Positions 41,139-45,158 of a stretch of 64,000 bases of DNA are shown here, piece after piece. The translations under genes and the position numbers were made by a program. The notes beneath the pieces are model-generated. The model ran no database searches and was not told where the DNA came from. It saw nothing but the letters and a program-made list of their open reading frames with translations. This DNA comes from an uncultured Alphaproteobacteria bacterium. GTDB lineage: Bacteria; Pseudomonadota; Alphaproteobacteria; RF32; CAG-239. Where the stretch lies: the NCBI GenBank assembly GCA_949493535.1, contig CASZWJ010000001.1, forward strand, positions 204,850-268,849. The letters run 5' to 3'. The first letter of the stretch is position 1; every line of letters begins with the position of its first letter.

Positions 41139-41259
41139 GGCGCAGCACAACAATCTTCCAAAGCCTTTGCTTTGAGTTGATTGGGGTGCAAGAAAAGTTT
41201 TGGGTGGTGGACTCATCACCACCCGCTCTTCAAGAGCAGAGATGATATCAACCCTCTTG

Positions 41260-41360
41260 AAAAAACTGTCCAAGACTGCAGGTGGCGCAAGCCCTAAATA
41301 TCCTGCATAGACGGGAGTAGAGAAATATTTAATATCTTTTTTCTCCTGGACAGATTAGGT
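41260..41360 (+). promoter_or_regulatory. L10 leader (autoregulatory rplJL leader RNA)
   Basis: CTGTCCA (41266-41272) closes with TGGACAG (41347-41353). Inside, TGCAGG (41277-41282) pairs with CCTGCA (41302-41307), followed by TAGACGGGAG. This arrangement matches the leader bound by the L10-(L12)4 complex. The rest of 41139-41451 contains a second hairpin region but no gene. Confidence 0.72.
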
Positions 41361-41451
41361 CCCGTTATTGAGGGGCAGAGTAATCTGTTTTTTCAATAGC
41401 GGAAATGTGTTGAAATGCATCATGAATATGATGTTTATTTGGAGACAATAA

Positions 41452-42475: not shown

Positions 42476-42513
42476 TTTGAGTTTTGCTTAACCGTTCTTT
42501 CAGAACAAAATTT

Positions 42514-42556
42514 CAGAAAGCCGAAATCCGGAACAGGATTTCGGCTTTCTTGTTTG
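42514..42556 (+). terminator. Terminator after rplL
   Basis: Perfect 14-bp stem GAAAGCCGAAATCC (42516-42529) with GGATTTCGGCTTTC (42536-42549), then TTGTTTGTTT. Confidence 0.9.
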
Positions 42557-42564
42557 TTTAAAGT

Positions 42565-42606
42565 TAAAAAAGCTTCGTATCTGTTGGATAAGACACGAAG
42601 CTTTTG
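42565..42606 (-). terminator. Terminator of the minus-strand membrane gene
   Basis: AAAAGCTTCGT...ACGAAGCTTTT (about 42568-42604) with a 16-nt loop; the T-run is on the minus strand. Confidence 0.8.
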
Positions 42607-43287
42607 TTAATTTTTCAGCCATTTGATATAGCAAAAAAACGGAATGACAATGGTATACTTAATAAGCAAAAAGAGCACAAAACAGATACATGTCAAAAAG
42701 GTTAAGATAATGCATAGAACAATTGCTATCAGGGTAGACAGTGCAATTATCACAAAAACGTTGCAGTCATTCAATACATAAAGACAAACGACGAAAACCG
42801 CTATCCAAAGGCAAAGAATGATACTGTTTAAGGCGATGCAATTTCTTAATCTGTTTTTGTAACCTGATTCATAATCATCAGTATCGCAGCAATCTAACTT
42901 GAAATAGTTGGCTGATAATGTTTTTATAGGATGGGCTATTCCTATGCAGCCAACAAAAATTAAACCGAATGATATAAAGGTGATGATAATGGCAATCAAT
43001 GCATTGATAAAGCTTCTGTTTTCCGGAGCAAGAGAGCTATAGTTTCCATAAAATCCACAGCAGAGAGCTGTCATAATCAGAACGGAAAATAAGATTTTGA
43101 ATAAAATCCGCCGCCATGCAGGCGCTTCATCTAAATCAAGCCAATCAATTGCTTTATACCAAAGTTGTTTCAAAGCGGAAGATCGGGGGGTGATTTTCGG
43201 ATAAGGGACTATTGCTACTATTGAAAAGACCCAAACCATTCCGGCCAAAACTGATGCGATAATCGCAATAATAGATAATACGTTCAT
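42607..43287 (-). CDS. Hypothetical multi-pass membrane protein
   Basis: 226 residues with about five hydrophobic segments, including an N-terminal one (residues 4-27) and a long C-terminal pair. Between the first two there is a soluble loop with ALKQLWYKAIDWLDLDEAPA. No family recognised; no ATPase or enzyme motif. It belongs to the insertion between rplL and rpoB. Start at 43287 has no clear ribosome site. Confidence 0.6.
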   Translation of the reverse strand: MNVLSIIAIIASVLAGMVWVFSIVAIVPYPKITPRSSALKQLWYKAIDWLDLDEAPAWRRILFKILFSVLIMTALCCGFYGNYSSLAPENRSFINALIAIIITFISFGLIFVGCIGIAHPIKTLSANYFKLDCCDTDDYESGYKNRLRNCIALNSIILCLWIAVFVVCLYVLNDCNVFVIIALSTLIAIVLCIILTFLTCICFVLFLLIKYTIVIPFFCYIKWLKN

Positions 43288-43537
43288 AAATATAAAGTTT
43301 AGATTAATAATGTTTATTGGAGCTGCAGAATAGGCGTTTTCGAACTTTTTGTCAATATAATGGCGATGAATAAATATTGCCCCTTATAAATGTAATGCAG
43401 ATGATTTTGCCTGTTTACATGATGTGCGCAGTATGGTAGTTTATACCAAATTTTGATTATCAGTATTAAGCATTATGTCAAAATATCATTTTTGAGAGTT
43501 TATATTTTTATTTTAATCATTTCTTAAATCAAATCTT

Positions 43538-44044
43538 ATGGATAAAAACAAAATTGTTGAATCTGTGTTAATTCAGATTAAAAAACATGACATTGCCGAT
43601 GAAGTTCTTTCGGCTTTGAATGCGAAAAAAAATGCGGACAGGCATTTTGACCGTTACTATAATAATAAAACGGGAGAAGTTGTCGGTTTGATTTATGGCG
43701 ATTTTGTTATCTTGAAGCAGACGTCGCCGGAAAAAATGAACTGGAGAGATGCCGAGGCTTATTGCCAAACGCTTGTTATTAATGGTATTCAGGCGGAACT
43801 TTGTCCGATTATGCCGGAATGGAAAAAGGACGTTGAGGCAGGTACGCAAGATTTGGCGGCTGCTTTGCATGAGATTGGCGCTGAAAATCTGGACAGCCCG
43901 ACATGGTGTGAAGCATATCTGCAGTCAGAATCTTTGTTCGGCGAATTATTTGCATGGTACTTACGCTTCGGGGCAAATCTTTCTAACGGATGCAAATGTG
44001 ACTACAAATTTTATGTACGTCCGGTTTTGCGCCTGAAAAAATGA
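43538..44044 (+). CDS. Hypothetical protein with DUF1566/Lcl-like C-terminus
   Basis: 168 residues, soluble. Residues ~47-60 (VVGLIYGDFVILK) start a domain that ends FYVRPVLRLKK; the closing VRPV-R is the mark of DUF1566/Lcl-type domains, as is the Trp/Phe-rich stretch SLFGELFAWYLRFGAN. The N-terminal 45 residues are helical. Function unknown. Starts with ATG and no clear ribosome site, followed by its own terminator. Confidence 0.6.
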   Translation: MDKNKIVESVLIQIKKHDIADEVLSALNAKKNADRHFDRYYNNKTGEVVGLIYGDFVILKQTSPEKMNWRDAEAYCQTLVINGIQAELCPIMPEWKKDVEAGTQDLAAALHEIGAENLDSPTWCEAYLQSESLFGELFAWYLRFGANLSNGCKCDYKFYVRPVLRLKK

Positions 44045-44054
44045 CTTGAGTGAG

Positions 44055-44094
44055 AAACAAAAGGTTCTTCTTTTAAGAAGGACCTTTTGTTGCA
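44055..44094 (+). terminator. Terminator of the DUF1566-like gene
   Basis: CAAAAGGTTCTTCTT pairs with AAGAAGGACCTTTTG, short loop, then TTGC. A-rich before and T-rich after are modest. Confidence 0.75.
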
Positions 44095-44102
44095 TTTAGC
44101 GC

Positions 44103-44131
44103 TTTACAATTATTTTTTAAGCCTCTAATCT
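44103..44131 (+). promoter_or_regulatory. Promoter of candidate structured RNA
   Basis: -35 TTTACA (44103-44108), exactly 17 bp, -10 TAATCT (44126-44131). Predicted start near 44138. Confidence 0.5.
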
Positions 44132-44137
44132 GTTATC

Positions 44138-44336
44138 GGATATGCAAAAGCGTATTCAGGGCGTCGAAAACCCTTTTCATAGATAGTCGCATCGTATATG
44201 GCGACTGATAAATTATATGCCGATTTCTGTCATGGACGGATGTCGGCGAATAAGGTCTTGGCCAAATAAGCCGAGCCGTCTTTATCTATGAACGGTTTTC
44301 GAACATCCGCCCACCTCTTTCGGTGGGTTTTGTTTT
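44138..44336 (+). ncRNA. Candidate structured non-coding RNA or riboswitch (four-way junction)
   Basis: A ~200-nt stretch with a promoter before and an intrinsic terminator at its end. Closing stem: CGAAAACC (44165-44172) with GGTTTTCG (44294-44301), and TCATAGATA (44177-44185) with TATCTATGA (44283-44291). Inside are three hairpins: GTCGC/GCGAC (44186-44205), GCCGA-CTGTC/GACGG-TCGGC (44219-44247), and CTTGGC/GCCGAG (44257-44275). It does not match tmRNA, 6S, RNase P, SRP or any riboswitch motif I know. It could be a stand-alone RNA or a leader of the lipoprotein gene at 44361. Confidence 0.5.
44310..44336 (+). terminator. Terminator of the candidate structured RNA
   Basis: CCCACC (44310-44315), loop TCTTTC, GGTGGG (44322-44327), then TTTTGTTTT. 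It ends 24 bp before the lipoprotein start codon, so it could also act as an attenuator. Confidence 0.85.
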
Positions 44337-44360
44337 AACTGTAATGATTGGATGTTCAAT

Positions 44361-44774
44361 ATGAAAAAACTGTTTTTATTTTTTATAGCCGTCAGTTTTC
44401 TGAGCGGCTGTTCGACGATTATGCGGGATAACAATCAAAATATTCCGATTTCTGCAAATGTTGAAAAAGTGAATTTCAAAATAAAGAACCGGTCGGGGCG
44501 GACGGTTATGGAAGGCGTGACGCCGTATACCGTTAATCTTAAAACGTCACGCGATGGCGGATATTTTTCGCCCGAGAAATACACAATAGAAGCTACAAAA
44601 GAGGGATATACCCCGATAACGCAGGAAATAGATTGGCATGTCAGTAAATGGTATTCTCTCGGTAATTTAGGTTTTGGCTTTTTGTTGGGATATTTAGTCA
44701 TCGATCCGATCAGCGGTGATATGTATTATCTTGACGAAGATGTTGAGTTAACAATGACGCCAATTAAGAAATAG
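44361..44774 (+). CDS. PEGA-like lipoprotein
   Basis: 137 residues with signal MKKLFLFFIAVSFLSGCS (lipidated Cys at 17). The body KNRSGRTVMEGVTPYTVNLK followed by PEKYTIEATKEGY resembles a PEGA domain, a small beta-fold common in surface lipoproteins. A short hydrophobic stretch LGNLGFGFLLGYLVI follows. ATG 44361 is chosen because GGATGTTCAAT precedes it; ATG 44352 is in frame. It may be controlled by the upstream RNA/terminator. Confidence 0.7.
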   Translation: MKKLFLFFIAVSFLSGCSTIMRDNNQNIPISANVEKVNFKIKNRSGRTVMEGVTPYTVNLKTSRDGGYFSPEKYTIEATKEGYTPITQEIDWHVSKWYSLGNLGFGFLLGYLVIDPISGDMYYLDEDVELTMTPIKK

Positions 44775-44953
44775 GGAGAAAAAAAGCCCTTTTTTATATT
44801 ATGGCTTTGACAAAAAATGCGTTTTTGTGTTTTGGGGCGGTAAATGTTTAGAAACGAATCGCTAAAAAGCAAAAAATGAGTCTTTTCGACTCTTTAGAGA
44901 AATTTTGCTGTGTAAAAAAGATAAAAAACTTGACTCGCGGTGAAGAATAATTC

Positions 44954-44981
44954 TTGCAATTTTAGACTCAAGAGGTATAAA
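44954..44981 (+). promoter_or_regulatory. Promoter of rpoBC
   Basis: -35 TTGCAA (44954-44959), 16-bp spacer, -10 TATAAA (44976-44981). Same layout as the rplK promoter. 44775-44953 shows no gene. Confidence 0.65.
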
Positions 44982-45158
44982 TAGACGAATTTAAAATCTA
45001 TTATTTTGCGAATCGCGGCCAAGAGAATTTTTTGTTCGAGGGTTTGGCGCGATTTCTGTTTTTTAAAAATCGATTTTTTTACATAACCTTCTGCGGTCGG
45101 GGTGCGGTGTTCTTCCGCCGGTATAGTCGCAGAATCATAACCTAAGGATTAAAGCACA
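44982..45158 (+). other. rpoB leader region
   Basis: About 175 nt between the predicted start of transcription and rpoB. It can form a long hairpin, GAATCGCGGCCAA with TTTGGCGCGATTTC (about 45009-45058). No coding frame. A leader of this size could host autoregulation, but nothing specific is recognised. Confidence 0.45.

Follow-up and report, generated by a model that had tools for sequence, protein, structure and literature searches.

Among the described systems closest to the RNA reported here are the C4 antisense RNAs of phages P1 and P7 (Rfam RF01695 and RF03163, clan CL00128). In the phage P1 annotation, which we used as a yardstick record, the elements follow each other in the order promoter, a1, b1, C4, a2, b2, and icd, and Rfam confirms both C4 and c4-a1b1 in this phage. 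RNase P removes the 5' part of phage C4. The C4 RNA itself works as a separate processed RNA (PMC5320573). In Acinetobacter baumannii, the Group 1 C4-derived sRNAs have multiplied in the chromosome, carry a longer 5' region, and show apparent processing at a GG (PMC5320573), and the sRNA-Xcc1 (RF02221) of Xanthomonas precedes symE in integron cassettes (PMC12444791). Literature searches for C4-like RNAs of the kind described below, situated before bacterial genes, turned up nothing closer.

The RNA and its promoter-like site occupy positions 44103 to 44336 on the plus strand of the window, by which we mean the whole analyzed stretch of 64,000 nucleotides from an uncultured alphaproteobacterium. 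A promoter-like site read in the sequence (44103-44131), with TTTACA at 44103-44108 and TAATCT at 44126-44131 separated by 17 nt, leads us to expect a transcription start near 44137-44138. It is followed by a 5' hairpin, P0 (44138-44157), recognized by folding and by homologue comparison, and by the 5' side of a bipartite closing stem, in which 44159-44185 pairs with 44281-44308. The lower 5' strand, GGGCGTCGAAAACC (44159-44172), is a1-like and pairs with the a' tail, GGTTTTCGAACATCC (44294-44308), whereas the upper 5' strand, V1 (44176-44185), is b1-like and covaries with its 3' partner V2 (44281-44291), which in the C4 fold also serves as loop b'. This stem encloses three inner hairpins: P2 (44185-44206; AGTCG...CGACT), whose consensus pairs changed on both sides; P3 (44217-44247), identified by folding, with a nearly invariant GGAT/GTCGG in the alignment and including GGACGGATGT, which is at once an SD look-alike and the 5' strand of the C4-type outer stem; and P4 (44252-44274), placed by fold and alignment, with an AAGG...GCC region and then AAGCCGAG. 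Positions 44234-44320 make up a C4/sRNA-Xcc1-like domain, as judged from sub-threshold Rfam matches and from the C4 fold that appears once the 5' part is removed. The a' tail is complementary to the leader and holds the anti-SD segment GAACATCC (44301-44308); an intrinsic terminator (44309-44336), detected by scanning and showing compensatory changes in homologues, follows directly. Beyond it lie the SD region GGATGTTC of the next gene (44350-44357), an a2-like target, and the probable target itself, an ORF for a 137-aa lipoprotein (44361-44774, plus strand), whose ATG at 44361 is 24 nt 3' of the terminator. Two neighboring features were also observed. A strong A/T-rich inverted repeat at 44058-44093, ending an upstream gene of 168 aa (43538-44044), is probably the terminator of that gene and would insulate the RNA promoter. 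Farther upstream, the stretch 41195-41450 before rplJ matches the ribosomal protein L10 leader and Arrc08 weakly, below threshold, and is probably an L10 leader.

The initial annotation had listed promoter-like hexamers, a bipartite closing stem, three inner hairpins, and a terminator, all of which are present, together with the 5' hairpin at 44138-44157 that it had not listed. The segment 44130-44345 has an MFE of -84.4 kcal/mol, compared with -53.4 +/- 3.7 in dinucleotide shuffles (z -8.4). Since an RNAalifold consensus alone mixed junction and C4-type pairs, we compared the pairing of each strand with its own partner and with swapped partners. Among 98 distinct copies, own pairing of the upper closing stem averaged -9.69 kcal/mol and swapped pairing -2.25, and the corresponding values for the lower closing stem were -16.2 and -11.0 kcal/mol; in a further test, the pairing had a z of 41 for the upper and 14 for the lower stem. 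The covariation among homologues that had been proposed as a check of the closing stem was thereby found, as overwhelming compensatory change in these copies, and it supports the four-way junction closed by a bipartite stem, as first described. The observation as a whole is confirmed and lies far beyond chance. The 5' hairpin (MFE below -4) occurs in 95% of the 98 homologues versus 20% of shuffles, and in the terminators of homologues both members of pairs have changed while the T-run is kept. For the promoter, a promoter-like score of at least 8 was found upstream of 63% of homologues and in 30% of shuffles, and the distance from the end of the -10 box to the AGGG block is 20 to 31 nt in about two thirds of the copies; a generic promoter scan of the window did not call a plus-strand promoter at 44103-44131. 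We regard this promoter, on sequence grounds, as supported but not proven. The broader proposal, of a real structured RNA that has a promoter-like sequence and a terminator of its own and is linked to the lipoprotein gene, is supported.

No Rfam family, riboswitch classes included, reaches its gathering score for the window RNA, so that the earlier statement that it fits no class holds in this sense. It does not hold in another: sRNA-Xcc1 (RF02221) matches 44234-44320, in the 3' half, over its full length with 36.7 bits versus a gathering score of 53, C4 (RF01695) matches 44228-44318 over its full length with 29.5 bits versus 45, and the layout is that of P1 c4. Scanned against Rfam, 12 homologous or sister loci stayed below every threshold; in 34 relatives, the sRNA-Xcc1 model exceeded its cut-off of 53 in none, and RF01695 had no match at E 0.01. 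The window lacks a match to RF03163 (a1/b1), but it has an equivalent 5' strand, which pairs with b' and a'. As in C4, the RNA is complementary to the next gene's leader, here through the a' tail and not through the b' loop, and no phage or prophage antirepressor was found as the target, the targets being lipoproteins, outer-membrane proteins, pilins, glycosyltransferases, and others. In predicted folds, the 3' part cut at 44234 refolds as C4, tying ACATCC to the internal GGATGT, whereas in the intact RNA the C4 fold is about 25 kcal/mol worse than the junction; the GG at 44234 and this C4 fold of the 3' part make 5' processing by RNase P possible. Given that C4 and sRNA-Xcc1 both match the 3' half below their cut-offs, the window RNA represents a new, real and widespread non-phage branch of the C4-like kind, previously uncatalogued and apparently serving envelope genes.

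A covariance model built from 29 copies finds the RNA in 93 of the 101 genomes sampled from the bacterial family, frequently with several copies each; across the class, 21 of 289 genomes gave a match. Most of the named matching records come from uncultured gut Alphaproteobacteria, among them Azospirillum sp. CAG:239. Five copies are present in the genome that contains the window (1.7 Mb, 21 contigs), the other four being 72 to 81% identical to the window copy. A phage-borne RNA was considered and rejected: none of the 80 listed stretches of viral contigs sharing a conserved 15-mer matches the covariance model, and the 15-mer matches are chance. Weak sRNA-Xcc1 matches in relatives reveal further subfamilies with the same plan and different sequences. 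Their tails often match other SDs (GCTCC/GGAGC, ACTCC/GGAGT, and CCTCC/GGAGG), and their C4 outer stem, tail-leader, and tail-upstream pairings are each better than 1000 permutations. A sixth, distant sRNA-Xcc1-like RNA in the window's genome (L430, contig C3, 110825-110909, minus strand) belongs to another subfamily and precedes a 166-aa membrane-protein-like ORF. One sister C4-like subfamily (L431, L432, L433, L444, and L449) precedes small HTH proteins of the antitoxin/repressor type, with the tail GAGCTCC facing the SD GGAGCT.

The tail and the leader of the following gene are linked by complementarity, with GAACATCC (44301-44308) being the exact complement of GGATGTTC (44350-44357). For 152 RNA-leader pairs, none of 1000 permutations scored as well as the tails with their own leaders, and the complementarity had a z of 6.5, compared with -0.3 in a control stretch at +200, although these permutation tests leave shared ancestry in, and relatedness inflates the tail-leader statistics. 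The variants of the tail follow the leader: a G before AACATCC in the RNA meets a C or T after GGAYGTT in the leader in 61 of 73 cases, a T (TAACATCC) meets an A in 8 of 10, a C (CAACATCC) meets a G in both of two, and copies with AGCATCC meet a leader GGATGC in three of seven. These variants are nevertheless seen repeatedly, in more than one genus and in families distinct from each other. In the window's genome, the same SD motif precedes the genes behind the other four copies, and among 30 matches to GGATGTT-ATG, plausible gene starts lie only behind the five RNAs. A trans regulon defined by the SD motif was rejected, as the matches outside the five RNA loci are intragenic or lack a plausible gene. 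The V2 loop is not complementary to the leader downstream (z = 0), so that there is no b2, and a b2-like target of this loop was rejected likewise. The predicted read-through fold keeps the junction closed while 44301-44308 pairs with 44350-44357. Predicted pairing of the SD with the anti-SD segment is 0.75 for the window copy and 0.75 to 0.97 for the window copy and L003 to L005 together; predicted occlusion in cis is 0.02 for L002, and of 104 loci only 28% have a value above 0.8. A recognizable GGATGTT-like motif is missing behind the RNA in 79 of 206 copies.

The orientation toward the following gene is strict. Counting ORFs of at least 75 aa around copies with enough flank (n = 191), we found an ATG-initiated ORF no more than 45 nt 3' of the RNA in 161 loci, with 29.6 expected at random positions, and on the 5' side in 3. 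The genes that follow are often those of lipoproteins or outer-membrane proteins; in all, they encode lipoproteins, outer-membrane proteins, autotransporters, PEGA proteins, pilin-like proteins, and glycosyltransferases, as well as some methyltransferases and restriction enzymes, and they have neither a single common family nor a shared pathway. The lipoprotein in the window has a lipobox-like N terminus, a weak LPAM_1 match below the cut-off, and a match to phrog_6823 (E 2e-29), and it shares about 40% identity with gp15 of epsilon34, a P22-like phage (L489, 2501-2920), whose gene adjoins mnt/arc/ant. Given this identity to relatives in P22-like phages, a phage origin of the cargo is possible, even if no phage was found to carry the RNA. 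Three congeners keep the 300 nt that precede rpoB, yet have neither the RNA nor the lipoprotein gene at this place, so that the unit in the window is variable cargo at the rpoB-upstream site. Two of the three carry ankyrin-repeat-like ORFs there instead, and the stretch before rpoB (window 42476-45158; L451 and L453) is a cargo hot spot. Five orphan copies (L241, L268, L294, L388, and L395) lie upstream of ftsH and end in a terminator, and the ftsH gene behind them has a separate promoter-like stretch. The SD target and motif are absent behind these five copies, which may be stand-alone trans sRNAs.

The reading that we consider likely, although well short of certain, is that this C4-type antisense/leader module represses the lipoprotein gene behind it by blocking its SD, mainly in cis. 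The RNA probably acts as an off-switch that is portable and has the C4 antisense RNA of phage P1 as a relative. Transcription driven by 44103-44131 would start at about 44138; a1 and b1 then pair with b' and the upper a' tail, as the covariation shows, closing the four-way junction and leaving GAACATCC available. The terminator would stop most transcripts and so yield a stable RNA about 195 nt long. In read-through transcripts, GAACATCC pairs with GGATGTTC, as covariation again shows, and the hidden SD would presumably preclude translation; the released RNA may hide the SD in trans likewise. More speculatively, removal of the 5' part might let the 3' part refold as C4 and tie ACATCC to the internal GGATGT, which would change or relieve repression, so that relief could come through processing or through a partner. 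Since the predicted read-through fold includes the SD pairing and the C4 fold is far less stable, repression seems the likeliest way of working. The module would have spread with acquired envelope genes, or been placed before them, across a family of gut Alphaproteobacteria. The covarying closing stem and the kept 5' hairpin, strict orientation, tail-leader covariation, the predicted read-through fold, the element order of P1 c4, the sister subfamilies that keep the complementarity, and the loop rule in genuine sRNA-Xcc1 members all argue for this reading. Against it, some copies have only weak occlusion in cis by prediction, a GGATGTT-like motif is missing behind many, and with highly efficient termination there would be no clear need for SD blocking as a further layer.

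Locus-by-locus covariation and the lack of other targets in the window's genome favor action in cis, and the five orphan copies before ftsH may point to a trans role. A rival reading is a stand-alone trans sRNA whose main targets are elsewhere or are all sister leaders, the linkage to the lipoprotein gene reflecting spread only. Such an RNA would account for the separate promoter-like site and terminator, for a tail so nearly invariant that copies could act on each other's leaders, and for the orphan copies that have no SD target, and it would resemble C4, which acts as a separate processed RNA (PMC5320573). We nevertheless consider it unlikely, as tail variants follow the leader of their own locus and no GGATGTT stands at gene starts of this genome besides the five linked ones.

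The initial annotation had also proposed a riboswitch or attenuator. Leader position, a terminator, and mutually exclusive folds (junction versus C4 fold) with an anti-SD segment would all suit a ligand-sensing riboswitch or a protein-sensing attenuator that controls the terminator and SD of envelope genes, yet the target genes share no pathway, the stem is the most variable part, no conserved pocket was identified, and an advantage of about 25 kcal/mol for the junction is a poor balance for a small ligand. The sister relation to C4-like RNAs, moreover, accounts for the layout without one. We find nothing that supports a ligand and consider this reading quite improbable; that the RNA precedes many unrelated envelope genes and has the SD of the next gene as its conserved partner points to antisense, SD-blocking control. 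A mobile palindromic DNA element, such as a MITE or an integron-like attC site, would suit a multi-copy, palindromic sequence beside variable cargo genes, with the rpoB-upstream site holding other genes in congeners, and sRNA-Xcc1 travels in integron cassettes (PMC12444791). That the sequence is such an element and no RNA is nonetheless very improbable: the orientation to the following gene is fixed (161 versus 3), the SD complement is conserved though the spacer is not, and the terminator has a T-run. A MITE or repeat element was rejected on orientation and leader covariation, and an integron cassette, suggested by sRNA-Xcc1, was rejected because the integron integrase TIGR02249 had no match over cut-off in 34 genomes, including that of the window.

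Beyond repression of the lipoprotein gene in cis, it is tempting, if somewhat doubtful, to regard the C4-type RNA as a general portable silencing module of gut Alphaproteobacteria, of which each copy guards one acquired envelope gene through a tail that mirrors the SD of that gene, with cross-talk in trans and an ftsH orphan as a shared master RNA. If true, this would be an RNA network for surface variation unrelated to phage immunity. The reading as a C4-type repressor would itself show that an RNA design of phage immunity (C4) now regulates surface genes widely within a large gut lineage that is uncultured. Because the RNA tail and the SD would co-evolve, the target could be read directly from sequence.

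The window RNA and C4 of P1/P7 share the order promoter, 5' hairpin, a1, b1, C4 domain, a2, and gene, as well as the outer stem, two inner hairpins, a GG at the possible processing site, and a CCACC-like 3' end; the closing stem corresponds to the a1-b1/b'-a' pairing, the tail to a', and the SD target to a2. Unlike P1 C4, the window RNA has a terminator directly after the C4 domain, contacts the SD by the a' tail instead of the b' loop, and lacks b2, and RNAs of its type appear to target bacterial envelope genes instead of a phage antirepressor operon and are present in many copies per genome. With sRNA-Xcc1, it shares the full-length match of its 3' half and the position upstream of a probably controlled gene, there the symE cassette (PMC12444791); sRNA-Xcc1 pairs with the leader by its loop, whereas the window RNA does so by its tail, and the longer junction form is characteristic of the latter. 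In sRNA-Xcc1 members over cut-off, from other Pseudomonadota, the loop is complementary both to the leader downstream and to the region upstream, but not to a control stretch, so that they too obey the rule by which a tail or loop matches the next leader as well as the 5' part of the RNA itself. The A. baumannii Group 1 sRNAs share with the window RNA the chromosomal multiplication of C4-type RNAs, the longer 5' region, and the GG motif, but are recognized by the Rfam C4 motif, unlike the window RNA, and occur in a different bacterial class with different gene content; their targets were left open (PMC5320573), whereas the partner of the window RNA is the SD of the adjacent gene. The tail/loop rule offers a way to assign targets to such C4-like RNAs with open targets, those of Acinetobacter being one example.
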